62,056 bases of DNA, taken from IMG/VR virus record IMGVR_UViG_3300012920_000038, positions 1-62,056 of that record. One strand, written 5' to 3'. The translations under genes and the position numbers were made by a program. This DNA is from a virus. The stretch's first letter is position 1; the number at the start of each line of letters is the position of its first letter. Positions 7,501 to 56,588 of this stretch are shown here, piece by piece. The notes below the pieces were generated by a model. The model was not told the origin of the DNA, made no database searches, and saw only the letters and a program-made list of their open reading frames with translations.

Positions 7501-7558
7501 AAAACTACATGAGACGGCTTATTTGAGCTACTAGCAGCATAAATAACTACATGAGACG
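7476..7558 (+). repeat. Tandem duplication across the gp43 stop and next start
   Basis: Two 41-bp copies, 7476-7516 and 7518-7558, match at 38 of 41 positions. Copy 1 holds the last gp43 codons and stop; copy 2 holds the late promoter and start of the next gene. The three mismatches lie in or beside the promoter heptamer. Confidence 0.92.
7539..7545 (+). promoter_or_regulatory. Late promoter motif, 228-aa protein gene
   Basis: ATAAATA exactly 5 nt before ATG 7551. The upstream copy of the tandem duplication has ATGAAAA at this place. Confidence 0.65.
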
Positions 7559-8237
7559 CTTTGACGAAAAGATACAACAAATTGAGACACAACTGAATGA
7601 AAACCCAAGAGGTATACAAGATGTTAAAAGAAGACGTAGAGTAGCAAATGACTCTGGCAACAAAATAAAAATACAGGATGTACCTAAACGTTTTGGTGGT
7701 TATCTAAAAAACCAAATGGATGGTGCTGTAGATTTAGTGCAACACGGACCGAAAAAACTTTTGAACAAAGGTAAAGAAATAGGTAAGGATGTTATAGGCA
7801 CTGTCACGGGACTACCGGGTGCAGTAACAAGTGTAGCAAAGGATTTATCACAAATGAAACTAGGTAAACCGAGCCTAAATATAAATCCAAAAAATATTGC
7901 TTCTGGCATGTCAAATACCATCGCAAAATATGCTGATGCAGGTGTCAATAAACTCAAAGGCGCAACAGATAGTCTGGCAGGTACATTAGACTCAATTGGC
8001 TCCGGAGAACAAATGGTTAACAGTGGTATAATTGACGGGAAGAAAACTTCAGTTTTAAATAAAGCACAAGACACAGTATCAAAATCACTAGCTGCAGCTG
8101 ATCATTTCAATCCAAAGAGCTTACCTAAAAATTTAGCTGTACAAGCCATGACAGACACCGCTGTGAATAGTCTGGTGCCAAAACAAAAGACACGGCCTGC
8201 AACCAAAGACATGAGATCAACCAAACCTTCGTTATAA
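7551..8237 (+). CDS. Unknown 228-aa protein with late promoter
   Basis: I do not recognise this protein. It starts with a charged helix (MRRFDEKIQQIETQL), a basic stretch (DVKRRRR), then glycine- and alanine-containing amphipathic segments (GKDVIGTVTGLPGAVTSVAK, GMSNTIAKYADAGVNKLKGA) and a basic tail. There is no clear membrane helix. The late heptamer ATAAATA lies exactly 5 nt before its ATG, so I infer a structural or virion-packaged protein despite its place between gp43 and uvsX. The start is chosen for that spacing. The preceding 41-bp repeat copy contains a decoy start reading MRRLI-stop that mimics the MRRF start. Confidence 0.7.
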   Translation: MRRFDEKIQQIETQLNENPRGIQDVKRRRRVANDSGNKIKIQDVPKRFGGYLKNQMDGAVDLVQHGPKKLLNKGKEIGKDVIGTVTGLPGAVTSVAKDLSQMKLGKPSLNINPKNIASGMSNTIAKYADAGVNKLKGATDSLAGTLDSIGSGEQMVNSGIIDGKKTSVLNKAQDTVSKSLAAADHFNPKSLPKNLAVQAMTDTAVNSLVPKQKTRPATKDMRSTKPSL

Positions 8238-8245
8238 AAATATAG

Positions 8246-8279
8246 TTGACTTCTGAGAAACATACTATAATATATTAGT
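8246..8279 (+). promoter_or_regulatory. Early promoter for the 126-aa protein gene
   Basis: TTGACT at 8246-8251. TATAAT at 8266-8271 gives a 14-nt spacer; the overlapping TAATAT at 8268-8273 gives 16 nt and then 6 nt to ATG 8280, matching the other early promoters. Confidence 0.65.
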
Positions 8280-8660
8280 ATGAGCAACAAAGTTACTTCA
8301 TTTGTAGATAGTGTTGGGCGCGTCATTGTAGCACGTGCAGTTGATGACAAAACTACCGACGACAAGCTCGCGGTGACCAACCCGTCTGTCGTTAATGTCA
8401 ATGTAAATCAGGAATCCGGACAAATTTCCGTGCAATTGTTACCTTACATCTTCCGAGAGTTTATCGCGGCAGAATCCCGGTATGACAAGCACGTCTGGTT
8501 TTTCAACACGAGTCAAATCACCACGTGTGAAGATTTCAAGATCGACTCAGCAGTTGAGAATCAGTACATCGGAATTTTTGAGACCGAACCAGCACCACCT
8601 GCTGAGGAGGCTTCGGAACCTGTTGAAGCTTTTGACGACAAATCTGAAGCTTCAGAATAA
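8280..8660 (+). CDS. Unknown 126-aa protein, monocistronic early gene
   Basis: A soluble protein with an acidic, Pro/Glu-rich C-terminal tail (EPAPPAEEASEPVEAFDD). The core (SVGRVIVARAVDD, SGQISVQLLPYIFREFI) looks beta-rich, with no motif I can name. It has its own sigma70-type promoter with a TTGACT -35 and a perfect hairpin terminator 25 nt after its stop, so it forms a single-gene transcription unit next to uvsX. That arrangement suggests high or separately controlled early expression. The acidic tail recalls those of ssDNA-binding and scaffold proteins, but this is only a resemblance. Confidence 0.75.
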   Translation: MSNKVTSFVDSVGRVIVARAVDDKTTDDKLAVTNPSVVNVNVNQESGQISVQLLPYIFREFIAAESRYDKHVWFFNTSQITTCEDFKIDSAVENQYIGIFETEPAPPAEEASEPVEAFDDKSEASE

Positions 8661-8685
8661 TCAACACATCAAACACTATAACAAG

Positions 8686-8710
8686 CCTGCTAGCAATAGC
8701 AGGTTTTTTT
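8686..8710 (+). terminator. Rho-independent terminator
   Basis: CCTGCTA-GCAA-TAGCAGG forms a perfect 7-bp stem with a GCAA tetraloop, followed by seven T (8704-8710). It ends the 126-aa gene transcript just before the uvsX promoter. Confidence 0.9.
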
Positions 8711-8712
8711 AT

Positions 8713-8748
8713 TTGCATATCTCCAGACATACTCTATAATATACGCAT
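8713..8748 (+). promoter_or_regulatory. Early promoter of uvsX
   Basis: TTGCAT at 8713-8718, 16 nt spacer, TATAAT at 8735-8740, then 8 nt to ATG 8749. Starts 3 nt after the upstream terminator T-run; leader predicted 0-2 nt. Confidence 0.75.
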
Positions 8749-9813
8749 ATGACGACTATAGAAAAAGATGTATTGAAAATATTTGACAAGCTTGACAAAC
8801 TGAATCCAGAAGCAAAATTTCTATCTGAATCTGCACTGTCAAGTGTGACAGAGTGGCATGACACCGGTTGCATGGTGCTCAATGCTGTTGTGTCTGGTAG
8901 TTTGTATGGTGGTTTACCCAAAGGTCGTATTGTAGGATTTGCAGGGCCTTCCCAAGCCGGTAAGACATACATCACAAACAAAATTCTAGCCAAGGCGCAA
9001 CAACAAGGAATGATTCCAGTGATCTTTGACACTGAGATGGCTGTTGATGAAGCTGCATGTGCAAGCGTGGGATTGGACTCGTCAAAAGTCAAGTATGTAC
9101 CTGTACAGACAGTTGAAGATTGCCGTAACCAGCTAGTCGCATTCCTTGACAGTATTGTCGAAGCCGGTGCACAAGGAAAATTTATCATATGCATAGACTC
9201 TCTGGGTAATCTAGCATCTCAAAAAGAAATCGATGATGTAGAAAAAGGCAAAACAGCAATGGACATGGGCACACGAGCCAAAGGATTGAAGAGCATGATG
9301 AGAACATTGACGTTCAAAGCAGCACATGCTAACACGACAATAATGTTCGTGAACCACACTTATGATGACCCGGCTGCAATGTTTCCTACATTGGTCAAAC
9401 AACAATCAGGTGGCAAAGGTCCGATTTACTTAGCAAGTGTGTTGGTGCAATTAGCGAAACGAGATGAAAAGCAAGACAAGAACAACGAAGAAGATGAAAT
9501 GTTACCGGATGCAAACAAGTACAGTGGTGTGACATTACGAGCACTTACTGTCAAGAACAGATTCATTCCTCCGTTTCTTGAGACTGAGATGTACCTGAAT
9601 TTCAAAACCGGATTGGACAAGTACTCTGGTTTGAGAGAGATGGCCATTAATCACGGTGCACTCATACAAAATGGTAGCACATACAGTTTACCCGGTGACG
9701 GTGGTAAGCTAGGCTACTTTAAAAATTGGTGTAAGAACACAGAAATTTGGGATGAAAAAATTCTCCCGGTGCTTGAAGAGAAGTTACAACAAGCTTTTAG
9801 ATACGGTAGTTAA
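8749..9813 (+). CDS. uvsX: RecA-like recombinase UvsX
   Basis: Strand-exchange ATPase for recombination-dependent replication. The RecA core shows LPKGRIVGFAGPSQAGKT with Walker A at residues 66-73, the Walker B strand FIICIDSLGNL near 145-155, and TIMFVNHTYDD near 201. Length 354 aa, somewhat shorter than T4 UvsX. It has its own early promoter (TTGCAT-16-TATAAT) with the ATG 8 nt after the -10 box. Its stop is the tetramer TTAA shared with the convergent gene on the other strand. Confidence 0.96.
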   Translation: MTTIEKDVLKIFDKLDKLNPEAKFLSESALSSVTEWHDTGCMVLNAVVSGSLYGGLPKGRIVGFAGPSQAGKTYITNKILAKAQQQGMIPVIFDTEMAVDEAACASVGLDSSKVKYVPVQTVEDCRNQLVAFLDSIVEAGAQGKFIICIDSLGNLASQKEIDDVEKGKTAMDMGTRAKGLKSMMRTLTFKAAHANTTIMFVNHTYDDPAAMFPTLVKQQSGGKGPIYLASVLVQLAKRDEKQDKNNEEDEMLPDANKYSGVTLRALTVKNRFIPPFLETEMYLNFKTGLDKYSGLREMAINHGALIQNGSTYSLPGDGGKLGYFKNWCKNTEIWDEKILPVLEEKLQQAFRYGS

Positions 9814-10001
9814 TTCTCCGCGCCTGGTTTTTTTACATCTTCAACTTTGACTAAACCTTTGCGAACAAACTGTCCGGAGCTAGGGCAAATCCAATGTGCC
9901 TCAGTGTACAATTTACCGAGATACTCACGTGTTCTAAGTCTGGGTCTGATTAAATCACCTGTGTATGGTGATCGTATAGGTTGTGGGTTAACAAAGTCCA
10001 T
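9810..10001 (-). CDS. Small unknown protein (63 aa), leftward late gene
   Basis: Starts MDFVNPQPIRSPYTG and has a compact core (REYLGKLYTEAHWICPSSGQF) with one cysteine. I do not recognise the family. It is real by context: a late heptamer CTAAATA stands exactly 5 nt before its ATG, it fills the space between uvsX and queC, and its stop overlaps the uvsX stop in TTAA. Late timing suggests a virion or assembly role. Its transcript would be antisense to the end of uvsX if it read through. Confidence 0.72.
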   Translation of the reverse strand: MDFVNPQPIRSPYTGDLIRPRLRTREYLGKLYTEAHWICPSSGQFVRKGLVKVEDVKKPGAEN

Positions 10002-10006
10002 ACAAG

Positions 10007-10013
10007 TATTTAG
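10007..10013 (-). promoter_or_regulatory. Late promoter motif, leftward 63-aa gene
   Basis: CTAAATA on the minus strand, exactly 5 nt before ATG 10001. Confidence 0.6.
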
Positions 10014-10035
10014 TCGATTTTGAGAAAAAATAAAC

Positions 10036-10050
10036 TATAATATAATTGTT
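10036..10050 (+). promoter_or_regulatory. Probable early promoter of the queC operon
   Basis: ACTATAATATAAT contains TATAAT at 10036-10041 and again at 10041-10046, 4-9 nt before ATG 10051. No clear -35 at good spacing (TTGAGA at 10020-10025 is 15 nt from the second box). Confidence 0.5.
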
Positions 10051-10749
10051 ATGAGTAAGAAATGTGTTATTCCAGTCAGTGGAGGTATAGATTCTACAGT
10101 AATATTGCATTGGGTTGCATCTGAAGGTATAGAGGTACATGCTGTGAGTTACAATTATGGTCAAAGACATTTCGATAAAGAGATGGAATGTGCTGTAGCG
10201 AATTGCGAAAAGATCGCAAAGACGCACAAAGTTTTGAATTTAGATTTTTTTAAAGACATAGTGAGTACTAGCTCGTTGATCAACAAAGATATTGACGTTG
10301 CGAAAACAAAAGATGTACTAGGTGATCCACAAACTGTAAATTATGTACCCAACAGAAACATGATGATGTTGTCAATATGCACAGCATATGCAGAATCCAT
10401 AGGAGCCACACAAGTATACCATGGTGCTGCGTTAGTCGATAGTCAAGCTGGTTATTGGGACGGTTCCAGAGAATTTTTACATGCTATCAACAAAGTGAAT
10501 GAACTGAATCGCAGAGATCGTATTGAAATACTTGCACCGTTAATTACCAAGAGTAAAAAAGACATTATTGAACTAGGAGTGTCATCTGGTGTAGATTTTG
10601 CATCAACATGGACGTGTTACGAGGGTAGAGACAAAGCATGCGGCCTTTGCCCAGCATGCAGCTCAAGAATAAAAGGCTTTATCGATGCCGGTGTTAGAGA
10701 TCCATTACAATATGAGATTGACATTCCGTGGGAAAAATATAACTGTTAA
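10051..10749 (+). CDS. queC: 7-cyano-7-deazaguanine (preQ0) synthase QueC
   Basis: ATP-dependent enzyme that converts 7-carboxy-7-deazaguanine to preQ0, a precursor of queuosine and archaeosine. It has the PP-loop SGGIDS at residues 10-15, YNYGQRH at 34-40 and YVPNRN near 98, and the four zinc cysteines C189, C197, C200 and C203 in CGLCPACSSR. It looks full length (232 aa). No queD, queE, folE or dpdA is visible in this window. It leads an operon that continues with a glutamine amidotransferase; the TATAAT-containing promoter lies about 9 nt before the ATG. Confidence 0.95.
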   Translation: MSKKCVIPVSGGIDSTVILHWVASEGIEVHAVSYNYGQRHFDKEMECAVANCEKIAKTHKVLNLDFFKDIVSTSSLINKDIDVAKTKDVLGDPQTVNYVPNRNMMMLSICTAYAESIGATQVYHGAALVDSQAGYWDGSREFLHAINKVNELNRRDRIEILAPLITKSKKDIIELGVSSGVDFASTWTCYEGRDKACGLCPACSSRIKGFIDAGVRDPLQYEIDIPWEKYNC

Positions 10750-10753
10750 CAAT

Positions 10754-11461
10754 ATGTGTGGTATTTTCGGATCATTTAATTTTACAACCTACGAAACACT
10801 ATACAAGAAAAATTGTACACGTGGAAACTTCGCTGGTGGTTCAATATATGTCGAGCAGCGTACCGGTGACATGTATGCTAAAAAATGGTCTGGTACACAA
10901 ACAGAACAAGAATTAACTGGTGAATATAGCTTAGTACATCCCGGTATGATCTTCGCTGGTCACACTCAAGCTCCAACATCAGCAAACCGTGATTATAATT
11001 TCGATACAACACATCCATTTGAGCACGGTAGATGGATAGTGGCGCATAACGGTGTGCTAGAAAATGACCAAGAGCTAAGAAACGAATACTTGAAACAAGC
11101 CACCGGAAAATATAAAGGTGCAACTTTTAATGCATTGACCAGCACGGTAGACAGCGCCGTTATACCAGCTTTACTAGATGAATTATATATGGATGATGAT
11201 GTGGATGTACTGTCCGATATTTTCAATTTATTGAGAGGTACTTTTGCGGTTTGGGCATACAATAAACAAACAAGACAAATGTATATAGCCCGATCTGGTA
11301 GTACATTATTTGCTAACATTCCAGAGAGTGTATTTTCATCAGTGTTAATAGACGGAGTAGCTGATCAAGAATTACACCCCGGGGTGATTTACTGTATGAC
11401 AGTTGAAGGGTTAACCCAGGTTGGTAGCTTCGAATATGATAACCCATTTTTTATGTTTTAA
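10754..11461 (+). CDS. Class II glutamine amidotransferase (Ntn hydrolase), next to queC
   Basis: Glutaminase domain that would release ammonia from glutamine. The start is placed at the ATG giving MCGIFGSF, so that after Met removal Cys2 is the N-terminal nucleophile, as required in this family. GHTQAPTS near residue 60 holds the region equivalent to the conserved Arg-x-Pro loop (here without the usual Arg), HPFEHGRWIVAHNGVLEN near 77-94 holds the HNG and N motifs, and STVDSAVI near 126 fits the usual TDSE site. The protein (235 aa) is a stand-alone domain with no synthetase. Gat domains are fused to QueC in archaeosine-making GAT-QueC proteins; here the two are adjacent genes 4 nt apart. 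A role in making a formamidine such as archaeosine is an inference. Confidence 0.85.
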   Translation: MCGIFGSFNFTTYETLYKKNCTRGNFAGGSIYVEQRTGDMYAKKWSGTQTEQELTGEYSLVHPGMIFAGHTQAPTSANRDYNFDTTHPFEHGRWIVAHNGVLENDQELRNEYLKQATGKYKGATFNALTSTVDSAVIPALLDELYMDDDVDVLSDIFNLLRGTFAVWAYNKQTRQMYIARSGSTLFANIPESVFSSVLIDGVADQELHPGVIYCMTVEGLTQVGSFEYDNPFFMF

Positions 11462-11462
11462 T

Positions 11463-11660
11463 ATGAACTATAGAATCGAATACAGAATAGACAATTACAT
11501 GAGTACACATTATAAATTTGTACAAGCACGCGACCCGGAGCAAGCAGAGCAACAATTTCAACAGGTAATTGACGAGCAAATACCAGAAGCAAATGTCAAT
11601 ATAGTTGAGATGTCATTAGTTGTTGAAAAAAACGACGCGATTGTGACAATCCCAGCATGA
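11463..11660 (+). CDS. Small unknown protein (65 aa)
   Basis: Starts MNYRIEYRIDN directly after the amidotransferase stop (1 nt gap). A longer reading from a GTG at 11421 would overlap that gene and is not needed. The predicted fold alternates strand and helix (YRIEYRI, EQAEQQFQQVIDEQI, NVNIVEMSLVVE), like small ferredoxin-type alpha/beta domains. No catalytic motif is visible. It ends in an ATGA overlap with the glycosyltransferase, so it is translationally coupled within the queC operon. Confidence 0.65.
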   Translation: MNYRIEYRIDNYMSTHYKFVQARDPEQAEQQFQQVIDEQIPEANVNIVEMSLVVEKNDAIVTIPA

Positions 11661-13689: not shown

Positions 13690-13717
13690 CGGTAGTTGAT
13701 TATCTGTTGTACAACAA

Positions 13718-13724
13718 GTAAATA
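13718..13724 (+). promoter_or_regulatory. Possible late promoter motif, DHH gene
   Basis: GTAAATA 8 nt before ATG 13733. Less perfect in sequence and spacing than the structural-gene motifs. Confidence 0.35.
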
Positions 13725-14951: not shown

Positions 14952-15613
14952 GTGTAAGTCAACAAGAGAAACACATCTACAATAAATTTTTAGCTGTCAC
15001 AAGATCAGCTCAAAACAAGCCGTTCAAATTGAGAAAGAAATTTGACAATCTTGACGACACGACAATACTTTGTCTCAAAAAATTATCGCTATTTTTCAAT
15101 CGTTTCCGTCATGTTGATGTTGATACATTCTTTAAAGCTCCATGGGAAATATATCTCGACAAAGGTATATTTGATTTGAAGTTCTACACAACTCAACGCG
15201 CACTAAAAGTATACACACTATACATGCAAAGACAGGCGCATAAAAAACCCGACCATGAAGAACAATTATATGACATCAAGCGATCGCTACAATACATATA
15301 CAGGTTTTGTAACAACACTGACATATCGATCGACGAGTATACATCACACACAACAGACGGTCTGAACACATTTGTGTTGCACTTGAAAGAGCATAATGTT
15401 AATATATACACATTATTCGGTTTTCATGATTTCGAGGACAAGTTACAGCAATTGGATAGAGAACAATTAAAATTTATACTTGGCGATTTAATCACCAACC
15501 TGGCAGAATTCAGAACAAATTACATGTCATCACAACACGCGAAAAATTTTATAAAATTAGGAATTAACAAAATCAAACAAAATCAAAAAACAGTTGAACT
15601 TCAAAACAAATAA
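14948..15613 (+). CDS. Unknown helical protein in the T4 gene 59 position
   Basis: A 221-aa mostly helical, basic protein, with aromatic-rich stretches (CLKKLSLFFNRFRHVD, FDLKFYTTQRALKVYTLYM). T4 gp59, the helicase loader (217 aa, helical, basic), is encoded directly before gene 32, as here, and the lengths agree. Sequence resemblance is weak, so the gp59 assignment is an inference from position, size and fold. It starts in an ATGA overlap with the preceding small gene. The -35 element of the gp32 promoter lies within its last codons. Confidence 0.6.
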   Translation: MSVSQQEKHIYNKFLAVTRSAQNKPFKLRKKFDNLDDTTILCLKKLSLFFNRFRHVDVDTFFKAPWEIYLDKGIFDLKFYTTQRALKVYTLYMQRQAHKKPDHEEQLYDIKRSLQYIYRFCNNTDISIDEYTSHTTDGLNTFVLHLKEHNVNIYTLFGFHDFEDKLQQLDREQLKFILGDLITNLAEFRTNYMSSQHAKNFIKLGINKIKQNQKTVELQNK

Positions 15614-15627
15614 TCTATAATAACAAT
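15594..15627 (+). promoter_or_regulatory. Early promoter of gp32
   Basis: TTGAAC at 15594-15599, 16 nt spacer, TATAAT at 15616-15621, then 6 nt to ATG 15628. Predicted +1 is the A of ATG. Confidence 0.75.
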
Positions 15628-21550: not shown

Positions 21551-21968
21551 TATCGGCACCAGATTGCTTGTTTTTAGCAGCAAGCAAATATTGCTTCAAA
21601 GCTTCACCAAGAGCGGAAAGATCCTGAGCCAATCTTGAAATCTTTTTTGACTCACTTCTACCGACATCTGCCAAAATGCTATCACAGTCTGTCGCATTCA
21701 ATTGAGAGTTGATGGATCCCTCATGGAGACCATTGAGATACTCGATGAAACCTTCAACCTCATTGATCCATGTCTCAAGAGTAGAAACAGTGTTTGCCTG
21801 TTGCTCTGCTTGGAATTGCGCTACCGGGTTGTCAGGAACATCATTGAAAGTTTCTGGGTCAGTACCGTCGTCTAGACCGGCCTCAAATGCTTGTTCGTCG
21901 CTCATTTGAGCGGGTTCTACCTCTTCTTGTTCTAATAGATTGATCAATTTGTTTTGAAAAACTTTCAT
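21543..21968 (-). CDS. Unknown acidic protein, leftward late gene
   Basis: A 141-aa acidic protein. The N-terminus MKVFQNKLINLLEQEE is followed by a disordered acidic stretch (SDEQAFEAGLDDGTDPETF) and two probable helices (TWINEVEGFIEYLNGL; SKKISRLAQDLSALGEALKQYL). This charge and helix pattern resembles small prohead-core or scaffold proteins, which is an inference. A late motif ATAAATA lies 8 nt before the ATG, divergent from another late motif serving the next gene. Confidence 0.7.
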   Translation of the reverse strand: MKVFQNKLINLLEQEEVEPAQMSDEQAFEAGLDDGTDPETFNDVPDNPVAQFQAEQQANTVSTLETWINEVEGFIEYLNGLHEGSINSQLNATDCDSILADVGRSESKKISRLAQDLSALGEALKQYLLAAKNKQSGADTI

Positions 21969-21976: not shown

Positions 21977-21983
21977 TATTTAT
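21977..21983 (-). promoter_or_regulatory. Late promoter motif, leftward acidic gene
   Basis: ATAAATA on the minus strand, 8 nt before ATG 21968; divergent from the motif at 21993-22000. Confidence 0.55.
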
Positions 21984-21992: not shown

Positions 21993-22000
21993 TATAAATA
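21993..22000 (+). promoter_or_regulatory. Late promoter motif, 131-aa gene
   Basis: Full T4 octamer TATAAATA, 6 nt before ATG 22007. Confidence 0.65.
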
Positions 22001-22006
22001 ATTAGG

Positions 22007-22402
22007 ATGATCGAAAAGAAAAAGCTACTATTTGAAGATCTAACACAACCTGGGGGTCAGTATAATCAGGCGAATAACAATCCGTCCGGTACAAGTCAGC
22101 GTCCTAATAAGGTCAATTTGACCGATTTGATTGACTATCAAAAACGGACAGCTAATCAGATCACCCGAGCACCAAATGTCATGCCTTTCCCGTTGACAAA
22201 AAATGTGATCGAGCAAATAGGCGATATTTATGTACAAGCTGTAAAGGTACAATCTGAACTCGGACAATCATATCAAAGCCCATTAATTTCTGATAATAAA
22301 GAATCGACTGATGCTCTCAAAGGCATGTACAAAAAACTCGAGAAAATCAAACTCATCGTGAAGTCTGTTGCAGACGAGATGAAAAAGCTTGATATTGAAT
22401 AA
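22007..22402 (+). CDS. Unknown 131-aa protein with late promoter
   Basis: Starts MIEKKKLLFEDLTQPGGQY. The first half is disordered and Asn/Gln-rich, and the second half has two helices (VIEQIGDIYVQAVKVQSEL; MYKKLEKIKLIVKSVADEM). The full T4 late octamer TATAAATA ends 6 nt before the ATG, so this is probably a virion or head-assembly protein. It is divergently paired with the leftward acidic gene. No family is recognised. Confidence 0.7.
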   Translation: MIEKKKLLFEDLTQPGGQYNQANNNPSGTSQRPNKVNLTDLIDYQKRTANQITRAPNVMPFPLTKNVIEQIGDIYVQAVKVQSELGQSYQSPLISDNKESTDALKGMYKKLEKIKLIVKSVADEMKKLDIE

Positions 22403-22422
22403 AGTTACACTATAATAATAGT
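22389..22422 (+). promoter_or_regulatory. Early promoter of membrane zinc-ribbon operon
   Basis: TTGATA at 22389-22394, 16 nt spacer, TATAAT at 22411-22416, then 6 nt to GTG 22423. This spacing decides the GTG start. Confidence 0.72.
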
Positions 22423-24818: not shown

Positions 24819-24826
24819 TATTTATA
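24819..24826 (-). promoter_or_regulatory. Late promoter motif, small basic gene and gp14-like
   Basis: TATAAATA on the minus strand, exactly 5 nt before ATG 24813. It lies just after the terminator of the upstream leftward gene. Confidence 0.68.
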
Positions 24827-24883: not shown

Positions 24884-25405
24884 TTAAGCAATTAATCCTT
24901 GATTACCGCCCTTGACAGTACCGTCAACTTTTTGGTTAGATGGACTCATCATTTTAGATGATACATCAGCCAATGGTTTAGGTTTTCCGCCGTCTTCTTG
25001 TCCAGCTGCATCTCCGGAAGCTCCTCCGGATGTTACTTTGCTGGCAGTACCGGGCACTTTGTTGTTTTTGTCAGTCAATCCTGAAGGGTCATGACCAGGA
25101 TGAGCTCCGTCGTTGGTGTGTTCAGCTTCAACAGCTTCTGGGAATGGATTCTCTTCTTCGAATCCTCCGTCTTCCATGTCCTCAAGCTCTTCTTCTCCGC
25201 CGTCGTCGAGCTGAGCCATCAGCACTTCATGTAGCTTTTCAGCTATGTCGCGTGGCAATGTGAATGTAACCTCATCACCAGCTTCATCGTTCATATCACC
25301 CATGTCTTCTTCACCGCCAAATGGCATGTCGAGAGCATCTCCTAGCTCGTCGTCAGCTTCCATGATGGTGGAGTACAATTTGTCAAATATATTTTTGTCG
25401 CTCAT
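24884..25405 (-). CDS. Nested short form of the scaffold-like protein (173 aa)
   Basis: An in-frame ATG at 25405 (MSDKNIFDKLYSTI) is preceded by ATAAATA at 25411-25417 with exactly 5 nt between, the same geometry as the independent late genes. This predicts a separate leaderless transcript making the C-terminal 173 residues of the 263-aa protein. Paired long and short scaffold products from in-frame internal starts are known in other phages (for example lambda C/Nu3), usually by internal translation rather than a promoter. This entry is an inference from promoter geometry. Confidence 0.5.
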   Translation of the reverse strand: MSDKNIFDKLYSTIMEADDELGDALDMPFGGEEDMGDMNDEAGDEVTFTLPRDIAEKLHEVLMAQLDDGGEEELEDMEDGGFEEENPFPEAVEAEHTNDGAHPGHDPSGLTDKNNKVPGTASKVTSGGASGDAAGQEDGGKPKPLADVSSKMMSPSNQKVDGTVKGGNQGLIA

Positions 25406-25675
25406 ATTAGTATTTATATCAGTATCACTTGAATTCTCTATTTTCTGCACATTTTCTGCTTGTGGGGATTCTTTCAAATTTTTCTTGTCGTTTTTCTTTT
25501 CAACAGGCTCTTCAACACCATCAACGTTTTCAGGACCACTGTCCTTAGGCTGTACACTATCATTAACGCCTTTTTCTTTATCGAATCCACGTGGTGTGGA
25601 GCTTTCATATAAAATATCTTCATATATATTTTCAAGATCTTTCATATGCCGTGTTAGATTTCTGGATTGTTTCAC
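24884..25675 (-). CDS. Acidic scaffold-like protein (263 aa) with nested in-frame start
   Basis: The long form starts at GTG 25675, placed exactly 5 nt after ATAAGTA. It has a basic N-terminus, a disordered charged stretch (EEPVEKKNDKKNLKES), an acidic helical middle (MEADDELGDALDMPFGGEED), a short conserved-looking helix (TLPRDIAEKLHEVLMAQL) and a Gly/Ser/Lys-rich end. Low complexity, acidity and late promoters next to gp17 fit a prohead core or scaffold protein; this is an inference. Inside it, another ATAAATA-5-ATG gives a second product from 25405 (separate entry). A hairpin terminator follows the stop. Confidence 0.68.
   Translation of the reverse strand: MKQSRNLTRHMKDLENIYEDILYESSTPRGFDKEKGVNDSVQPKDSGPENVDGVEEPVEKKNDKKNLKESPQAENVQKIENSSDTDINTNMSDKNIFDKLYSTIMEADDELGDALDMPFGGEEDMGDMNDEAGDEVTFTLPRDIAEKLHEVLMAQLDDGGEEELEDMEDGGFEEENPFPEAVEAEHTNDGAHPGHDPSGLTDKNNKVPGTASKVTSGGASGDAAGQEDGGKPKPLADVSSKMMSPSNQKVDGTVKGGNQGLIA
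25411..25417 (-). promoter_or_regulatory. Internal late promoter motif inside the scaffold-like gene
   Basis: ATAAATA on the minus strand within the coding sequence, exactly 5 nt before an in-frame ATG at 25405. Confidence 0.55.
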
Positions 25676-25687
25676 GTAAGTACTTAT
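25676..25687. promoter_or_regulatory. Bidirectional late promoter motif between scaffold-like gene and gp17
   Basis: GTAAGTACTTAT is nearly palindromic. Minus strand: ATAAGTA (25681-25687) exactly 5 nt before GTG 25675. Plus strand: GTAAGTA (25676-25682), +1 expected near 25688, ahead of gp17. Confidence 0.6.
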
Positions 25688-27394: not shown

Positions 27395-27402
27395 TATAAA
27401 TA
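27395..27402 (+). promoter_or_regulatory. Late promoter motif, tube-like gene
   Basis: TATAAATA overlapping the gp17 stop region, 8 nt before ATG 27411. Confidence 0.6.
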
Positions 27403-28000: not shown

Positions 28001-28017
28001 ATAAATACTTTTAAGGA
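28001..28017 (+). promoter_or_regulatory. Late promoter motif and ribosome binding site of sheath gene
   Basis: ATAAATA at 28001-28007, followed by AAGGA at 28013-28017, 9 nt before ATG 28027. The only late first gene here with a clear leader and Shine-Dalgarno. Confidence 0.65.
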
Positions 28018-28026: not shown

Positions 28027-30444
28027 ATGGCACGTACAATACAATCACCAGGTGTAGAGATTAACGAAATAGATCTTTCTTTGAGACCAGACCTTCCGGT
28101 CGGTACCAACATTTTAATACCAGGATTCAGTCCTGCAGGACCAGTAGACGAGGTGCTACAGGTAGCAAGTTTGTCTGAATTCGAACAAGTGTATGGGTTA
28201 CCGACCAACGCCACAGAAAGATATTTCTATCATACAGTTAGAGCAGCTTTCCAAAGCCCGGGTAACATTTATGTTACACGTTTACCGTACGGTGCAGATC
28301 GTGGTGACACAATAGCTTCAAAACACTATTCAGCAACTCTGTATCCTGTTGTGATCAGTAAGGTAAACAGTGACGGTTCATCCGGTGATAATGTACCATT
28401 AGACGGATTGTACGATTTGATGACCAACCCATTATCGGCTGATACAGATGTAGTAGTGAACATAAATGAACCGACATACGTTGAGCTCACGCAAGATGAG
28501 TATCAGAGTGTTATTGATGGTGATATCGAATGGGGTGCGACAAATGGCATAACCGGCGATACCGTTTTAAAGCAAATAGCTTCTGCGGGTGTTGTAATTT
28601 TGAACGATAGGTCATTGACAATAAATGAAAAATTCGAAGGTTACTACGTAGGGTTAGTTGATAACAATGAATTCTACCCGAACTCACCATATGAGAGTAT
28701 CGAGAGTGTTGGTACTATTAATAAAAATAGTAAAAATGCACCAGGAGATGCATATCGTACAGTCAGCCCAACACGACTTTCTTTTCCATTAAAATCAGCC
28801 AAAGACGGTGATTTAGCATATGTTGAAGGTTCCATTTCAGAAGTATTTGAAAACATGCCTCCGAACGACATATCAACAAGTGAATTTAAAGACATTTTAG
28901 TACTCGGTGTTTTCAAACTGAGAAAATCAACGCTTGACCCAGACACAGAGAAATTAAGCTACACTTTATCTGAATATCATATCGGTTCATTGAACGCAAA
29001 TCGTGAGCAGTTCGATCCGAATGGAGGAACACCTGTATCATACGCGCTTGCTGATGTCACGACAAATTCACCAAATTTCACATTGATGGTGAATAAACAT
29101 CTAGCAGATTCCGGTGACTGGATCAACAGAGACGCCACAACAAACACAGCAACATATGCAACCGGGATTGAAGACACTACACAATCAGGTGTGAAATCAA
29201 GAGTGCAGATGAAAGTATCAAATGAAGCAAAGAAACTTTATGCACATGGTGTATATAAACAAGTTTCGGAAGTCAAAAGCACAGTAGGTGCTATACCATC
29301 AAAACTGGATCGTGTGTTTGAATTAATAGACAATCACGAATTGTTTCCATTGGATATCACTTTAGAAGCTGGATTGGGTACGATTTTCGCAGCGACATAC
29401 GGTGGTAGATCAGAAGCAAATTACGATGATGAAAAATTTTACGACTTAAACAAAGGTGTTGGTCCTGATACACTGGCTAGCAATCCGGATTTTGATATAG
29501 CTAATTGGAATGCCCAAGATGGTCCAGCAGATTGTTGGGATTACACTGGAAATAATCCGGATGATTACGGAATCTACGGTACTGGTCAAAAGCAATTTTT
29601 AGGAGGCCCGGTCATGTGGTATCGTAATGTCGCGAACCGGTTTGTTGAATTTGCAGAGAAGAAACGCAAAGACCACATGTGCATACTTGACCCGCTCCGC
29701 CATATATTCGTACAGGGAATCAATGGAACTGTACTGAGTGACAAAAGCAAAAATTTTAGCCAGCACGTATACTGGCCTCTGAGACATATTTATCAAAGCA
29801 TCAACACGAGTTACGGTGCTGTATATGGTAATTGGGCCAAGACATTTGATGGTCAGTTAGGTCGTAATGTGTGGGTTCCGATGAGCGGGTACTTATCAGC
29901 AACATATGCCAACACTGATGCTAATTTCCAACCATGGTTCGCACCAGCTGGTTTCACACGAGGAGTGTTGAACGGTATTGCTGATATCGCAATATACCCG
30001 AAACAAAAACATCGTGACCAACTTTACAAAATCAATATCAATCCGATAGCAAATTTTCCGAATGATGGCTTCACAGTATTCGGCCAGAAAACATTACAGG
30101 CCAAGCCCAGCGCGTTTGATCGAGTCAATGTGCGTAGATTGTTCTTGTTTCTCGAGAAAGCCACTCGCGCAACAGCCAAATACTTCATTTTTGAACCCAA
30201 CACACTATTCACCAGAACGCAAGTCTCAAATGTACTTGCACCGATTTTCGATCGAGCCAAAAACACACAAGGTTTGTTCGATTACTTGTTGATCTGCGAC
30301 GAGAGAAACAACACACCTGATGTGATCGATCAGAACGAGATGGTGATTGATATATACATCAAGCCGGTACGAGCCGCAGAATTCATCTTGGTGAACTTCT
30401 ACGCAACAAGAACCGGTCAAGACTTCAGCGAGTTAGTGTCGTAA
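28027..30444 (+). CDS. 18: Tail sheath protein gp18
   Basis: Contractile sheath subunit. The N-terminus MARTIQSPGVEINEIDLS and GTNILIPGFSPAGPVDEV is typical of the family. The C-terminal polymerising core has FDRVNVRRLFLFLEKATRATAKYFIFEPN and ends with FILVNFYATRTGQDFSELV. At 805 aa it is longer than T4 gp18 (659); the extra length lies in the middle, probably surface-exposed domains. Uniquely among late first genes here it has a true leader: ATAAATA lies 19 nt upstream and AAGGA (28013-28017) 9 nt before ATG, which fits very high expression. Confidence 0.95.
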   Translation: MARTIQSPGVEINEIDLSLRPDLPVGTNILIPGFSPAGPVDEVLQVASLSEFEQVYGLPTNATERYFYHTVRAAFQSPGNIYVTRLPYGADRGDTIASKHYSATLYPVVISKVNSDGSSGDNVPLDGLYDLMTNPLSADTDVVVNINEPTYVELTQDEYQSVIDGDIEWGATNGITGDTVLKQIASAGVVILNDRSLTINEKFEGYYVGLVDNNEFYPNSPYESIESVGTINKNSKNAPGDAYRTVSPTRLSFPLKSAKDGDLAYVEGSISEVFENMPPNDISTSEFKDILVLGVFKLRKSTLDPDTEKLSYTLSEYHIGSLNANREQFDPNGGTPVSYALADVTTNSPNFTLMVNKHLADSGDWINRDATTNTATYATGIEDTTQSGVKSRVQMKVSNEAKKLYAHGVYKQVSEVKSTVGAIPSKLDRVFELIDNHELFPLDITLEAGLGTIFAATYGGRSEANYDDEKFYDLNKGVGPDTLASNPDFDIANWNAQDGPADCWDYTGNNPDDYGIYGTGQKQFLGGPVMWYRNVANRFVEFAEKKRKDHMCILDPLRHIFVQGINGTVLSDKSKNFSQHVYWPLRHIYQSINTSYGAVYGNWAKTFDGQLGRNVWVPMSGYLSATYANTDANFQPWFAPAGFTRGVLNGIADIAIYPKQKHRDQLYKININPIANFPNDGFTVFGQKTLQAKPSAFDRVNVRRLFLFLEKATRATAKYFIFEPNTLFTRTQVSNVLAPIFDRAKNTQGLFDYLLICDERNNTPDVIDQNEMVIDIYIKPVRAAEFILVNFYATRTGQDFSELVS

Positions 30445-30446: not shown

Positions 30447-30453
30447 ATAAATA
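30447..30453 (+). promoter_or_regulatory. Late promoter motif, tail tube gene
   Basis: ATAAATA 9 nt before ATG 30463. Confidence 0.55.
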
Positions 30454-30462: not shown

Positions 30463-31014
30463 ATGCCAGACGTAAATCAAACAATAACGGACTTTTACAG
30501 AGTATCACAAGAGAAAGACTTTCAACGCGATTTTCAGTTTCGTGTGTTGAACATCCAAGGAGGAGACGGCACGTCCGTTACATTTACTGAAGATGATCTG
30601 GTGTACATTCGCACCGCTACATTACCTGGAAAGAGCATTCAAAACAAAGTTGTACCTTACATGGGATTGCAATTCAACATTCCCGGTAGTGTACAATATG
30701 ATGGTTCAGCCAATTGGTCGGTACAGTTCTATTGTGATCAAGCAAGTGCCATCAGACAAACTTTTGAAAACTATTTAACAGATGTGTTTGACGACAGCAC
30801 CAGCACCGGAAATTATTTCATGCCACGAGCCAATGCTATCGTGGACATGGTGCAGCTGGACACGCAACTTGAAGCAGTTGCAACATATCAGCTAGTAGGA
30901 GTGTATGCCCAGTCAGTAGGAGCTTTGAACTACAGCCCAGCAGACGGTACAGGTGACACCATGAAGTTTGATGCCACGCTAGCATACCAATACTGGCGCC
31001 GAACCACACCATAA
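30463..31014 (+). CDS. 19: Tail tube protein gp19
   Basis: Major tube subunit, 183 aa (T4 163). Conserved features are NFQFRV-type start (DFQFRVLNIQG), RTATLPGKSIQNKVVPYMGLQFNIPG near 45-70, WSVQFYCDQ and the final VYAQSVGALNYS. It follows the sheath by 18 nt, with ATAAATA 9 nt before its ATG, so it can be transcribed from its own late promoter as well as with the sheath. Confidence 0.93.
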   Translation: MPDVNQTITDFYRVSQEKDFQRDFQFRVLNIQGGDGTSVTFTEDDLVYIRTATLPGKSIQNKVVPYMGLQFNIPGSVQYDGSANWSVQFYCDQASAIRQTFENYLTDVFDDSTSTGNYFMPRANAIVDMVQLDTQLEAVATYQLVGVYAQSVGALNYSPADGTGDTMKFDATLAYQYWRRTTP

Positions 31015-31023: not shown

Positions 31024-31045
31024 CCCATATAAGTAGTTATATGGG
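31024..31045 (+). repeat. Inverted repeat over promoter and start codon of gp54-like gene
   Basis: CCCATATA (31024-31031) and TATATGGG (31038-31045) are perfect 8-bp complements with a 6-nt spacer. The right arm contains the ATG. Confidence 0.75.
31029..31035 (+). promoter_or_regulatory. Late promoter motif, gp54-like gene
   Basis: ATAAGTA exactly 5 nt before ATG 31041, inside an inverted repeat. Confidence 0.6.
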
Positions 31046-32009: not shown

Positions 32010-32016
32010 ATAAGTG
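32010..32016 (+). promoter_or_regulatory. Late promoter motif, first hub-chaperone gene
   Basis: ATAAGTG exactly 5 nt before GTG 32022; the spacing supports the GTG start. Confidence 0.5.
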
Positions 32017-33725: not shown

Positions 33726-33732
33726 ATAAGTA
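33726..33732 (+). promoter_or_regulatory. Late promoter motif, tape-like protein 1
   Basis: ATAAGTA 19 nt before GTG 33752. A 13-bp tandem duplication lies between and creates AGGA 10 nt before the GTG. Confidence 0.5.
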
Positions 33733-38705: not shown

Positions 38706-38712
38706 ATAAATA
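38706..38712 (+). promoter_or_regulatory. Late promoter motif, gp48 operon
   Basis: ATAAATA exactly 5 nt before ATG 38718. Confidence 0.65.
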
Positions 38713-43897: not shown

Positions 43898-43904
43898 TAC
43901 TTAT
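43898..43904 (-). promoter_or_regulatory. Late promoter motif, gp16-like gene
   Basis: ATAAGTA on the minus strand, exactly 5 nt before ATG 43892. Confidence 0.65.
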
Positions 43905-46233: not shown

Positions 46234-46241
46234 TATTTATA
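46234..46241 (-). promoter_or_regulatory. Late promoter motif, leftward virion-like gene
   Basis: TATAAATA on the minus strand, 6 nt before ATG 46227; divergent from the gp25 promoter. Confidence 0.6.
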
Positions 46242-46254: not shown

Positions 46255-46261
46255 ATAAGTA
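46255..46261 (+). promoter_or_regulatory. Late promoter motif, gp25-gp6 operon
   Basis: ATAAGTA exactly 5 nt before ATG 46267. Confidence 0.65.
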
Positions 46262-52368: not shown

Positions 52369-55300
52369 CAAGTATCAACTACAAAAATTACAACACATCA
52401 CAAAGCATAGTAAATCAACAAGATGCTGTTGAGATAACTGGAGCTCAAGACAAAAACGAACCATTCACATTCTTACAATGGGCAAATTTATCAAGTATAT
52501 CTGATAAAAATTCTGATGTAGCCAAGCAACTGTATAACAAATATTTAACAGAATGGTCAGCAATCAAATCTGGTGATCTGAACAAATCTACCCAATCAGT
52601 CACAGAAATGTTTTCAAATTTCTTGAAACAACTACCCGCTGACACAACTGAAGACGAGTCAAGATACATAAACAACATCGACTATAGTGACAAATATGAA
52701 GTTGAATCGGCGATCAAATTTTTTGTGTCAAAATTGAAAAAAGTTTCCAATGAAATTGGCAACAACCGGCAGTCAGTTGCATTTCAAACAACACGTAACA
52801 GTATTCGAGGAACAAAATCCGGTTCGGCGTTACTTATAAAGGATATGTTGATACGAGTGTTGCGAGATGAGGATTTTATCTCTGACAAAATCATATCACC
52901 TGCTGACAAACAGAAAATTATCGATCAGATACAAGTGACTGTTACGGAATTGTATGATAGCAAAACGACCGGTACTGACAATACAGAAAATGATACAAAC
53001 ATTGTCAATCAAAAGGTTGAACAAAAAATTGAGTATGATCCTTACATTTTTATAGACACGGAAATCGCCACAGTAAATTTACTTGACAGTTATGGTACTA
53101 TTTTGTCTGATACAGTCAGTACGGTAACAACAAACAATCAAAATGAAATTGCTTTAAATTTTACACCAGATCTAAACACTGTACAAAATTTACCCAGCAG
53201 TGAATTTGTTGATTATAACAAAACAACATTGAATATTGATTCAATGATAAAAATTGTACCGCAGTTGATGTCGTCGAGAGTGGATTACGTCAACACATCA
53301 ACCTTATCCGCTGTTGAGACAGGTGAGCTGTTCGATTCGAGAAAAAATCTCAATAGATTGAGTTCGACATTGCATCCATCTATAGATATATTTGAAAACA
53401 CAAGTGTGAATCGTGTAACAACGGTTGGTAACTTCTACACACCAGCCAAGCTAGGTTTGTTGAAATATTACAGTTTTGATTTCACGCCAGAAATATTAAA
53501 CGAGCATCTTGAGAAAGATAAAATTTATACACATACTAATCTATCTGATAGTGGTTCTAATTTTAATAAAATACCGGTTGATTATTATGAAGATTTCACC
53601 ATGGTCAAAAACAGTACAGTTGAATCTGGTCGTCCGGGTGAAATTTCACATGATCTATTGAAAATACCTAGATTCCACAATTATCAATCTCGCGAACAAA
53701 CTAATGTTTTTTCACAAGAAGGTGTATCACGTAAAGATGATAGCTTCGATTTCTGGACCGGGGATGTTGATGATGTGTGGGCCAATCAAGACGTATTTGA
53801 ACTCGAAGCTGAAAATATATTTAATATAGACGATCGACAACAAACAATGTTTGCTAATGTCGGTCATATGTACAAATGGAAAACTGATGCACATGGAAAT
53901 GAATTTGGTGTGCTGAAGAAAATCGCACCTTTCCCTGGTTTGACGCTTGAAGACCTAAAGGACCCGGATCCAACTTCTGGTTGTTACATAATGGATGGTG
54001 ATCTGTTTAAAGACGGATCAACACGTGAAATAACAACATATGAATATACTGTCAACGAATCTTCTGGTAATTTGTTTACCAATCTACCATTTTCAAGAGT
54101 CGCAAATGGTATGTTTTTCTCCCGTGTTGATTGTGTATTTGAAGAACCAGAACCAGAAACACTTGTAATAGACATACCAAAATTGAGAGGTGGTCAGCTG
54201 TATTGTATCTGGCTTGATGGTTTTGTTATGCGGTTCAATGGGTTGTATGAACTTACAAGCACAAATAATGATAACAATTTTGCAGCCGATCCTAGCATAT
54301 CTAAGATATGGGATGGTCTTGATTTCAATCAAGTGTGTATAGCAGCACCCAGGACAGATGAATTTTACAAGCTTGAAACCACCCGGGTTCACATAGATGG
54401 ATCAGATCAATACGTACACACACAAGTTGAAAACTTGGATGATTTTGAATCATTAAATCTAGAAGATCAACAAATAACACCAGGTAATTTAGTTGTAAGA
54501 ACAGCGGATAGCGGCAAAATCGGCAATTTCAACACCATATGCGATAAAATTATCAACAAATATAGTTCGAACGCGCAACATGAAATAAACAACGAGCTTC
54601 TAGATATTGATATTATATCCGGTGACATAATAATATTTGAGACAACAAATTATTATATTATAGATCGGATAACTTACGACTACACAAACAACGAAATTAT
54701 TTCTGAAGAAACACCCGCTGAAATACATAAACATAGTGATGAATATGAGGAGTATGTTATTTCAGACTGGTTTTTTAATGAGAGTAAAAACCAAATTTTG
54801 TTTAGTGTGTTAAGAACTGTAAGAGATTCAATAACTAGAGACTCTAGAATTGAAACTGTGCTTTATTGGATTAACACAACAAACTTCACTCTACAAAAAT
54901 CGTCCCCGGTCATCGATTGGTACAATACACAAGAAATCGTTTCAAAATCCATACACAATTTACAAAAACCAAAGATAACATACAATTCCGAACTTGACAA
55001 ATATTATATAATTTGCACATGCAATTACTCGCAAATTGTTGATGGTCCAAAATCATTTGCGATTTTTGTATGTGGTATAAAGTCAAAAGGTGCAACCAAC
55101 GTAACGACAGCAACAACATATACAGCAACTCGACTAGCAATTGAAACTGGCGCGAACAGAACAGAGCAGGAACAACAGGTAAATGATTCTGAATCGTTGA
55201 TATTGACCGAAACATCAAGTAGAACGATAGATGGTTCCAAATATTACGGGGTTGTTGAATATAAAAATTCGTTGTATAATACGTTGGAATTGGATATATC

Positions 55301-56030
55301 AAGACTTGCTCCTAGTGAATTTGCTACTAGAGTTGAAGTCATGTTTGACGAGGAAGATGATAAAACAACGCAAACAAATACACATCGCCCTATCATAACA
55401 TATGATAATTTTGATAACTTAGTCGGTAACAACACACGTGATCCTCGCAATTACAAATTGCAACATGTATATACCAATAATAAACCACGAATTGTATGCA
55501 AGGTACAGCTCTACACATTGACAGAACCTTCTAGACCACGCGTGTACAAAGTGCTTGTTGAACAAAAGCCGACCGACATAACATCATCGTTTGGTAAAAT
55601 AGTCGGGGCTGGTGATGTAAGATTGAGATCACCACAAGGAGTACAAATCTCACATGTCACAGTGATTAATGAGCGTACCGGTGGAGAGAATCTCTTGCTA
55701 GTTTTAAAAACAACATCTCCAGATTACACAACAACAGTTTTATTAAAATTAGCGGAACCAATCCGGCAAACAATTACATACACGGCAACAGACAAAACGA
55801 TAATGACAGGTAAGTCTATAGATGATGTTAGATTGCGTATAAAATATGATAGCTTTGAAACAAACGAAAGTGTTATTGAATCAACTGAATCTGAATCTAC
55901 TGAAATTGTAGTTGATGAGACATACCAGCCGACACAGCAACCACAAACATCAAATCCGGTGACACCAACTGAGCCAGTATATCAACCAGACCCGGTATCT
56001 CAACCGGTATATTATCCATACAGTAAATAA
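52365..56030 (+). CDS. Giant tail/baseplate structural protein (1221 aa)
   Basis: Unrecognised by name. N-terminal region helical (FLQWANLSSISDKNSDVAKQ, FFVSKLKKVSNEIG, SALLIKDMLIRVLRDEDFISD), then a long beta-rich body (300-1100), and a Pro/Gln-rich tail (VYQPDPVSQPVYYPYSK). Overlaps the preceding wedge gene as ATGA, so it belongs to the 25-6-7-like operon. In T4 gp8 follows gp7 but is much smaller; a fused or replaced wedge/fibre anchor is possible. Domains could not be assigned further. Confidence 0.6.
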   Translation: MTSINYKNYNTSQSIVNQQDAVEITGAQDKNEPFTFLQWANLSSISDKNSDVAKQLYNKYLTEWSAIKSGDLNKSTQSVTEMFSNFLKQLPADTTEDESRYINNIDYSDKYEVESAIKFFVSKLKKVSNEIGNNRQSVAFQTTRNSIRGTKSGSALLIKDMLIRVLRDEDFISDKIISPADKQKIIDQIQVTVTELYDSKTTGTDNTENDTNIVNQKVEQKIEYDPYIFIDTEIATVNLLDSYGTILSDTVSTVTTNNQNEIALNFTPDLNTVQNLPSSEFVDYNKTTLNIDSMIKIVPQLMSSRVDYVNTSTLSAVETGELFDSRKNLNRLSSTLHPSIDIFENTSVNRVTTVGNFYTPAKLGLLKYYSFDFTPEILNEHLEKDKIYTHTNLSDSGSNFNKIPVDYYEDFTMVKNSTVESGRPGEISHDLLKIPRFHNYQSREQTNVFSQEGVSRKDDSFDFWTGDVDDVWANQDVFELEAENIFNIDDRQQTMFANVGHMYKWKTDAHGNEFGVLKKIAPFPGLTLEDLKDPDPTSGCYIMDGDLFKDGSTREITTYEYTVNESSGNLFTNLPFSRVANGMFFSRVDCVFEEPEPETLVIDIPKLRGGQLYCIWLDGFVMRFNGLYELTSTNNDNNFAADPSISKIWDGLDFNQVCIAAPRTDEFYKLETTRVHIDGSDQYVHTQVENLDDFESLNLEDQQITPGNLVVRTADSGKIGNFNTICDKIINKYSSNAQHEINNELLDIDIISGDIIIFETTNYYIIDRITYDYTNNEIISEETPAEIHKHSDEYEEYVISDWFFNESKNQILFSVLRTVRDSITRDSRIETVLYWINTTNFTLQKSSPVIDWYNTQEIVSKSIHNLQKPKITYNSELDKYYIICTCNYSQIVDGPKSFAIFVCGIKSKGATNVTTATTYTATRLAIETGANRTEQEQQVNDSESLILTETSSRTIDGSKYYGVVEYKNSLYNTLELDISRLAPSEFATRVEVMFDEEDDKTTQTNTHRPIITYDNFDNLVGNNTRDPRNYKLQHVYTNNKPRIVCKVQLYTLTEPSRPRVYKVLVEQKPTDITSSFGKIVGAGDVRLRSPQGVQISHVTVINERTGGENLLLVLKTTSPDYTTTVLLKLAEPIRQTITYTATDKTIMTGKSIDDVRLRIKYDSFETNESVIESTESESTEIVVDETYQPTQQPQTSNPVTPTEPVYQPDPVSQPVYYPYSK

Positions 56031-56075
56031 CCCTATCAAACACGGTTATAGTTATGGAGAGTTAGTACTCTGGTC

Positions 56076-56082
56076 ATAAGTA
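56076..56082 (+). promoter_or_regulatory. Late promoter motif, coiled-coil and fibre genes
   Basis: ATAAGTA exactly 5 nt before ATG 56088, in the 57-nt gap after the giant 1221-aa gene. Confidence 0.65.
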
Positions 56083-56087
56083 TTTCT

Positions 56088-56588
56088 ATGACAATATCAC
56101 ATCAATCGATCAATCGTGTAAGCGTTAATGATCTACCGGAAGCGATAACAATAAAGGATGATGATTTTATGTTGCTACAAAGCGACGGTGTTTCATCAAA
56201 AATACAAATATCAAACATTGTATTAGATCGAGAAAACATTACTTTTTATAATGAGATTGCAGATCTGAACCGTGTAACAACCGAGAACACACAATCAATC
56301 GAGCAGCTCAAACGCCAGGTCAACGGATCAGATTCTTCTGATGTTACAAGCGTTAGCCGTGTTGAAAATTTATTAGAGGTAACAGAAAATTTAACAACAA
56401 AAACAAATAATCTAGACGCGACAGTCAAGTCTAATAAACAACGTACCGAGTCTGTGAACACGACACTTTCAACAAAGATTGACAATGTGAATGCAGAACT
56501 GGCGAATGTGAATGCAGAACTGGTGAATGTGAAGAACGAAATTGCAAAAATATCATCCATTGTAGAGGAACTACAGGGGAACAAATAA
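56088..56588 (+). CDS. Short coiled-coil tail protein (166 aa)
   Basis: The N-terminal domain (SINRVSVNDLPEAITIKDDD, FMLLQSDGVSSKIQISNI) resembles the short beta domain found at the start of fibre or whisker proteins. The rest is a coiled coil of about 100 residues (IEQLKRQVNGS onward) with exact heptad repeats NVNAELA/NVNAELV encoded by a 21-bp tandem duplication. Likely a trimeric stalk or connector. ATAAGTA stands exactly 5 nt before ATG, so it starts a new late unit ahead of the giant fibre gene. Confidence 0.65.
   Translation: MTISHQSINRVSVNDLPEAITIKDDDFMLLQSDGVSSKIQISNIVLDRENITFYNEIADLNRVTTENTQSIEQLKRQVNGSDSSDVTSVSRVENLLEVTENLTTKTNNLDATVKSNKQRTESVNTTLSTKIDNVNAELANVNAELVNVKNEIAKISSIVEELQGNK
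56484..56535 (+). repeat. 21-bp coding repeat (heptad) in coiled-coil protein
   Basis: AATGTGAATGCAGAACTGGCG is repeated at 56505 with one or two changes and partly again at 56526, each encoding a seven-residue coiled-coil heptad (NVNAELA). Confidence 0.8.

Follow-up and report, generated by a model that had tools for sequence, protein, structure and literature searches.

The IMG/VR record IMGVR_UViG_3300012920_000038 (62,056 bases, analysed over its whole length and hereafter called the window) is part of the genome of a divergent T4-superfamily myovirus, in which the heptamer ATAARTA (R being A or G) stands about 5 nucleotides (nt) before the start codons of virion-type genes. Very probably, to judge from the sequence comparisons given below, this heptamer is a late promoter dependent on gp55, the T4-type late sigma factor, and is fused to the start codon, giving leaderless or near-leaderless mRNAs. 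On the best reading of our data, T4 late transcription takes a new form here, with gp55 promoters fused to start codons; it is new within the open-access literature, in which we found no description of leaderless late transcripts of T4 type. In the mechanism that we propose, gp55 on the host core RNA polymerase would open the heptamer and initiate at the A of the ATG or no more than a few bases away from it; the virion genes would then yield mRNAs with no leader or almost none, on which ribosomes would start by recognition of the 5′-terminal AUG and not through a Shine-Dalgarno (SD) leader. Early and replication genes would be laid out alike behind promoters of the host sigma70 type, and a few very highly expressed virion genes (that of the major capsid protein and, in many members of the group, that of the sheath) would keep an SD leader. 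The comparisons establish the motif, its spacing and conservation, the division between gene classes, the disappearance of the SD and the encoded gp55; from these we infer recognition of the heptamer by gp55, the exact +1 and the way in which translation starts.

The window belongs to the T4 superfamily by its core gene set, in which gp47/gp46, gp43, UvsX, gp41, gp32, gp45 and gp44 are recognisable alongside the virion-side genes for terminase (gp17), sheath (gp18), tube (gp19) and baseplate. Known phages are distant relatives, their DNA polymerases and terminases being about 31-35% identical to those of the window. Related terminases were found in 80 IMG/VR loci at 46-84% identity, and a tree of a sample of these loci places them in one fully supported clade, separate from T4, X1, C48C1, the cyanophages and HTVC008M, with long branches that make the deeper joins unsure. 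The clade is a large, uncultured group of T4-like phages. Our comparisons used the window and eight fetched related contigs (nine contigs, 1,297 called genes) and the 80 terminase loci, which partly overlap them; the contigs are incomplete, and gene starts were called with a simple open reading frame (ORF) picker and then checked by orthology.

Spacing of the heptamer and of a sigma70-type box

The pattern ATAARTA-N5-RTG occurs nine times in the window against 1.01 expected, and its reversed form does not occur there at all. A sequence-only reading, which had proposed gp55-type late promoters at this distance, had named beforehand an equal motif density in shuffled sequence as grounds for giving up the idea; 100 dinucleotide shuffles gave at most four matches. 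ATAARTA lies 5 or 6 nt upstream of 11 of the 62 called gene starts, compared with 2 of the 4,649 other RTG codons (Fisher p = 6e-20), and one of these two is itself the in-frame internal start at 25405. Counted independently of gene calls, the window holds nine heptamers at a spacing (k) of 5 and four at k=6, versus 0-4 at other spacings.

The same 5-nt peak appeared when the search was extended to relatives, as had been suggested. Across the nine clade contigs, 94 starts have the heptamer at a distance of 5 nt, 42 at 6 nt and 26 at 4 nt; most other distances have 0-13 occurrences, and beyond 13 nt the background is low and flat. In the eight related contigs, the count that ignores gene calls reaches 135 at k=5 versus roughly 10-35 at other spacings, and ATAARTA is found 5 or 6 nt before 125 of 1,234 gene starts versus 60 of 58,506 other RTG codons. 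The spacing peak recurs in the 80 terminase loci (111 at 5 nt). Of the 21 A5T2 heptamers, ATAAATA is the most enriched at 4-7 nt, with 168 occurrences where the median is 11, and its overlapping neighbours come next.

Twelve of the fourteen promoter sites first listed for the window proved exact. Nine of the eleven given at exactly 5 nt stand as described (7551, 24813(-), 25405(-), 25675(-), 31041, 38718, 43892(-), 46267 and 56088), as do all three given at 6 nt (3304, 22007 and 46227(-)); at 10001(-) and 32022 the spacing is right and the heptamer is imperfect (CTAAATA and ATAAGTG). To call the 5-nt distance fixed was, however, too strong, as the spacing is a peak at 5 nt with a spread of about 4-9 nt: the heptamer stands at 8 nt at 21968(-) and 27411 and at 9 nt at 30463, and at 28027 (sheath) and 33752, both late-type genes, it lies 19 nt upstream and is accompanied by an SD-like sequence. 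The form with G, ATAAGTA, is indeed a recurrent variant, accounting for 6 of the 14 heptamers at promoter position in the window versus 10 of 201 in the eight related contigs (p = 1e-4); the preference for it is particular to this phage.

A second promoter class provides an internal ruler. TATAAT in the clade contigs peaks 6 nt (50 sites) and 7 nt (21 sites) before starts, in a count that left out genes with a heptamer, so that the peak does not derive from the heptamer. TTGA stands 16 or 17 nt upstream of the TATAAT box in 34 of 87 such sites, and no TTGA enrichment at 16-17 nt was seen for the late heptamer class. The sigma70 -10 box ends at -7 and the T4 late box at -6; a start codon at +1 thus predicts distances of 6 and 5 nt, respectively, and both peaks match. 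This offset of one base between the two promoter classes is the strongest single argument for a start codon at +1, and it gives each class the box position that characterises leaderless genes, at 5 nt for the gp55 type and at 6 nt for the sigma70 type. Two promoters of the early type were located in the window, TTGAAC-N16-TATAAT at 15594..15621 (+), fused to the start codon 6 nt before ATG 15628 of the gp32 gene (single-stranded DNA-binding protein), and TTGATA-N16-TATAAT at 22389..22416 (+), 6 nt before GTG 22423.

Gene classes, leaders and the late sigma factor

Early and replication genes use the sigma70-type promoters and virion genes the heptamer. The heptamer keeps its spacing across orthologs while the flanking bases drift: five late-set genes of the window have it 3-8 nt from the start in 17/19 (10001(-), all at 4-7 nt), 14/20 (21968(-)), 19/20 (25405(-), 17 of them at exactly 5 nt), 29/45 (27411) and 21/26 (30463) distinct orthologs. 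None of 59 orthologs of gp32, gp45, gp43, UvsX and gp41 has it, and in 17 of these a fused TATAAT takes its place. Orthologs of gp15, gp19, gp20 and gp21, which are leadered with an SD in T4, are fused in several clade members.

The loss of the SD follows the same line. No SD was found at heptamer-fused genes in the window (0/11), in contig G003 (0/32) or in contig G018 (0/39), compared with 21 of 26 motif-bearing genes in T4, and over clade genes as a whole its frequency is at or near the rate seen at internal ATGs. Among window genes of at least 100 amino acids (aa), 27% are late-fused, 7% early-fused and 2% have a strong SD, whereas the same classes in T4 give 32% with a strong SD and about 1% fused. 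We infer leaderless or near-leaderless expression for the heptamer-fused genes. The earlier proposal that +1 falls on the start codon and that late mRNAs are leaderless is thus supported but needs narrowing in its reach, since SD leaders persist at the capsid gene and often at that of the sheath: an SD of the AGGAGA/GGAGAA type precedes the major capsid gene in G003, G006 and G013, though this gene is fused in G018, and the sheath genes across the clade are a mixture of SD-led and fused forms. These leaders indicate that the host ribosome probably reads SD sequences, and they seem to persist where the highest output is required, if this functional reading is right. At the tube gene of four loci (L035, L036, L050 and L066), GGAG or AAGGAG lies directly upstream of the late heptamer or touches it, an arrangement that would give read-through mRNA an SD while leaving the transcript from the gene's own promoter leaderless.

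A gp55 homolog is encoded at the very edge of the window (2..439, +), where the contig end cuts off its 5′ part and leaves the C-terminal part. It shows 36-38% identity by tblastn to the annotated late sigma factors of Mosig, S-H38 and P-TIM40, and phmmer and alignment relate it to gp55 of T4, HTVC008M and Syn9; homologs are also present in six of the eight fetched contigs, with E-values down to 1e-36 within the clade. The hydrophobic clamp-binding epitope that ends T4 gp55 (SLDFLYE) is missing from all seven clade proteins compared (window, G001, G003, G007, G013, G017 and G018), and by inspection also from Syn9 gp55. The gp43 of the same clade genomes ends in a QTDLFELL-like clamp motif. Given the epitope-free termini, clamp coupling through gp55 may be absent. 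By sequence, no match to gp33 of Syn9 or T4 was found; a conserved ORF of 88-115 aa occupies the syntenic place before the gp59-like gene. That gp55 reads the heptamer, as first proposed, gains support from the encoded homolog, the conserved spacing, the leadered T4 orthologs, the sigma70 offset and the heptamer-free replication genes.

Three other explanations were weighed. The heptamers could be promoters whose leaderless 5′ ends are minor products, the bulk of late protein coming from read-through mRNA that is leadered or is coupled and polycistronic. About a third of the genes would suit this view (in the window, 35% of those with 100 aa or more begin at -20..+8 nt from an upstream stop codon), as would the SD leaders kept at capsid and sheath. 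However, many heptamer genes are the first on their strand, among them divergent pairs with starts 38-39 bp apart where a read-through leader is impossible, and we consider the explanation very unlikely. It is also highly improbable that the heptamer is an element of translation initiation (A/U-rich, S1-binding or Bacteroidota-like) and not a promoter. Clade genes largely devoid of an SD do need another initiation signal, and the region ahead of the start is A/T-rich, but the heptamer matches the gp55 consensus, is restricted to virion-type genes, and stands 19 nt away, together with an SD, at leadered genes such as sheath, while replication genes have in its place a TATAAT box with a correctly spaced -35 element at a distance shifted by 1 nt. 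Least probable of all is that these are ordinary T4-style late promoters with transcripts starting inside the gene and true starts further downstream: the start codons do come from a rule-based call, and a few genes contain additional in-frame ATGs, but N-termini align from the called ATG in distant relatives (sheath MARTIQSPGVEINE; tube MPDVNQ/MADV; 10001(-) MDF/MDT) and the annotated HTVC008M starts agree. Among phage factors that might account for leaderless translation, no phage-encoded initiation factor 3 (IF3) was found, and ribosomal protein bS21 was set aside as a general explanation, being found only in G007, G013 and pelagiphages; bS21 genes were noted in two clade contigs (L197 and L198), in HTVC008M (91237-91392) and in Mosig (9983-10132).

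Several points nevertheless weigh against start-codon-fused gp55 promoters as the source of leaderless mRNAs. The 4-9 nt spread of the spacing would leave a leader of a few bases (1-4 nt) on some transcripts, and the +1 of T4 itself is known only to about a base. Gene starts were assigned by the simple ORF picker and orthology. Internal genes could receive leadered mRNA by read-through from promoters further upstream, GGAG occurs just upstream of the heptamer at some tube genes, and a clade gp55 devoid of the C-terminal clamp-binding epitope of T4 may be regulated differently. A broader scenario, which we put forward tentatively and hold to be slightly nearer doubtful than probable, is that the whole clade dropped leaders at both early (sigma70) and late (gp55) promoters and reserved the SD for the most abundant virion proteins, with promoter position setting the mode and strength of translation and late transcription untethered from the sliding clamp at gp55.

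Known late promoters and distribution of the fused form

To our knowledge, promoter and gene are separated by an SD leader in all described T4-type late systems. The T4 late promoter box TATAAATA spans -13 to -6 and is served by gp55, gp33 and gp45 (PMC2988020). The clade resembles T4 in having a TATAAATA-like box before virion genes, no -35 element, a gp55 homolog and late promoters on both strands; it differs in that the T4 box lies about 12-35 nt from the start with an SD leader between, against about 5 nt and no leader here, the SD being absent from nearly all heptamer-fused genes, and in that the C-terminal clamp-binding motif is missing from clade gp55, whereas clade gp43 keeps a clamp-like one at its C-terminus. 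No heptamer was found at 3-7 nt in T4, Syn9 or C48C1, whose sites lie at 12-39 nt. Cyanophage late promoters (NATAAATA, described for S-PM2 and Syn9; PMC2984593) share the heptamer core and a related gp55, but the Syn9 heptamers stand at 17-39 nt.

Two cultured pelagiphages have N5-fused late heptamers before gp2, gp48, gp25, the tape measure gene and others. HTVC008M has nine N5 sites versus three reversed, and all seven checked end exactly on database-annotated starts; Mosig has nine versus one, with six of seven checked agreeing with annotated starts. According to a published study (PMC7029224), late promoters were sought in pelagimyophages without success. Unlike the clade, HTVC008M has a partial version, in which most genes keep an SD and early promoters are not fused. 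Its terminase groups with the cyanophages and not with the clade, and the partial version may therefore be independent or ancestral. No N5 excess was seen in PTm1, RM378, Xanthomonas X1, phiM12, S-SM1 or AG-345-F15.

Outside the T4 superfamily, a -10 box next to the ORF, some 10-12 nt ahead of the start codon, likewise points to leaderless mRNA in genes of Actinobacteria and Deinococcus-Thermus (PMC3160421, PMC12340547), although there the promoter is of the host sigma70 type and here a phage late sigma promoter is also involved. The late promoters of phiKZ, T(-3)ATG(+1), also overlap ATG and start site (PMC7598289), but they serve a phage multisubunit RNA polymerase, have no TATAAATA box and belong to an unrelated system. 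AR9 was rejected as a leaderless precedent, as its paper gives untranslated regions of 26-491 nt.

Fused promoters imply a route of translation for virus genes different from that of T4. If our reading is true, it would show that a large virus can express its genes without leaders by default, would account for cases in which standard prediction of late promoters and start sites may fail in such genomes, and would provide, in the two sigma classes, a ruler for leaderless initiation. Cultured pelagiphages, with their partial version, offer a directly testable system.

Three candidate host groups were considered and set aside. An actinobacterial host was rejected as WhiB is absent in 20 clade records. 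A Bacteroidota host or phage analogy found no favour, since Tenacibaculum phage PTm1 lacks N5 enrichment (14 sites versus 11 reversed), as does Rhodothermus phage RM378, and the early promoters here resemble TTGA-N16/17-TATAAT and not the Bacteroidota type. Verrucomicrobia were suggested by one phage contig in the bin of a Verrucomicrobia metagenome-assembled genome, but the binning of phage contigs is weak evidence and that bin shows little TATAAT-N6-ATG (10 versus 3).

Probable promoter sites in the window and minor observations

The plain 5-nt sites comprise ATAAATA at 7539..7545 (+, before ATG 7551), 24819..24825 (-, before ATG 24813(-), kept in L009, L010 and L011) and 38706..38712 (+, before ATG 38718), and ATAAGTA at 31029..31035 (+, before ATG 31041), 43898..43904 (-, before ATG 43892(-)) and 56076..56082 (+, before ATG 56088). 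CTAAATA at 10007..10013 (-), with one mismatch and 5 nt before ATG 10001(-), is supported as a real site by its orthologs, whereas ATAAGTG at 32010..32016 (+), also with one mismatch and 5 nt before GTG 32022 of a baseplate hub-like gene, is doubtful, as it is not conserved in relatives and its ortholog does not support the GTG start. ATAAGTA at 3291..3297 (+) precedes ATG 3304 of a glycosyltransferase-like gene by 6 nt, and the G001 ortholog has ATAAATA 5 nt upstream. Wider spacings belong to ATAAATA at 27396..27402 (+), 8 nt before ATG 27411 (tail tube-like), and at 30447..30453 (+), 9 nt before ATG 30463 (tail tube). The two leadered exceptions are ATAAATA at 28001..28007 (+), 19 nt before ATG 28027 of the tail sheath gene gp18 with an SD-like AAGGA between, and ATAAGTA at 33726..33732 (+), 19 nt before GTG 33752 (an uncertain start) with TAGGAAG between.

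Two divergent pairs of late promoters were observed. ATAAATA at 21977..21983 (-), 8 nt before ATG 21968(-), is paired with ATAAATA at 21994..22000 (+), 6 nt before ATG 22007, leaving 38 bp between the starts; ATAAATA at 46234..46240 (-), 6 nt before ATG 46227(-) and present in 5 of 6 orthologs, is paired with ATAAGTA at 46255..46261 (+), 5 nt before ATG 46267 of a gene like that of baseplate wedge gp25, leaving 39 bp. Similar pairs occur in G001, G003 and G013, and such close spacing is possible only because neither a leader nor a -35 element is needed.

Two further late promoters are nested in one ORF in the region 24884-25687(-). ATAAGTA at 25681..25687 (-) stands 5 nt before GTG 25675(-), the start of the long form of the 24884-25675 gene, and ATAAATA at 25411..25417 (-) stands 5 nt before ATG 25405(-), an in-frame internal start 270 nt further on that would give the short form. 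Both heptamers are conserved in L009, L010 and L011, and the first, with its GTG, also in L012; the arrangement predicts long and short isoforms.

Finally, transfer-messenger RNA genes with long predicted tags were noted in two contigs related to the window, L090 (12277-12660, 27 aa) and L114 (2843-3222, 25 aa), the latter also carrying a large tRNA cluster. Between 10051 and 11461 of the window, a QueC-like gene and, after it, one resembling a glutamine amidotransferase gene hint at a pathway for deazaguanine modification of DNA.

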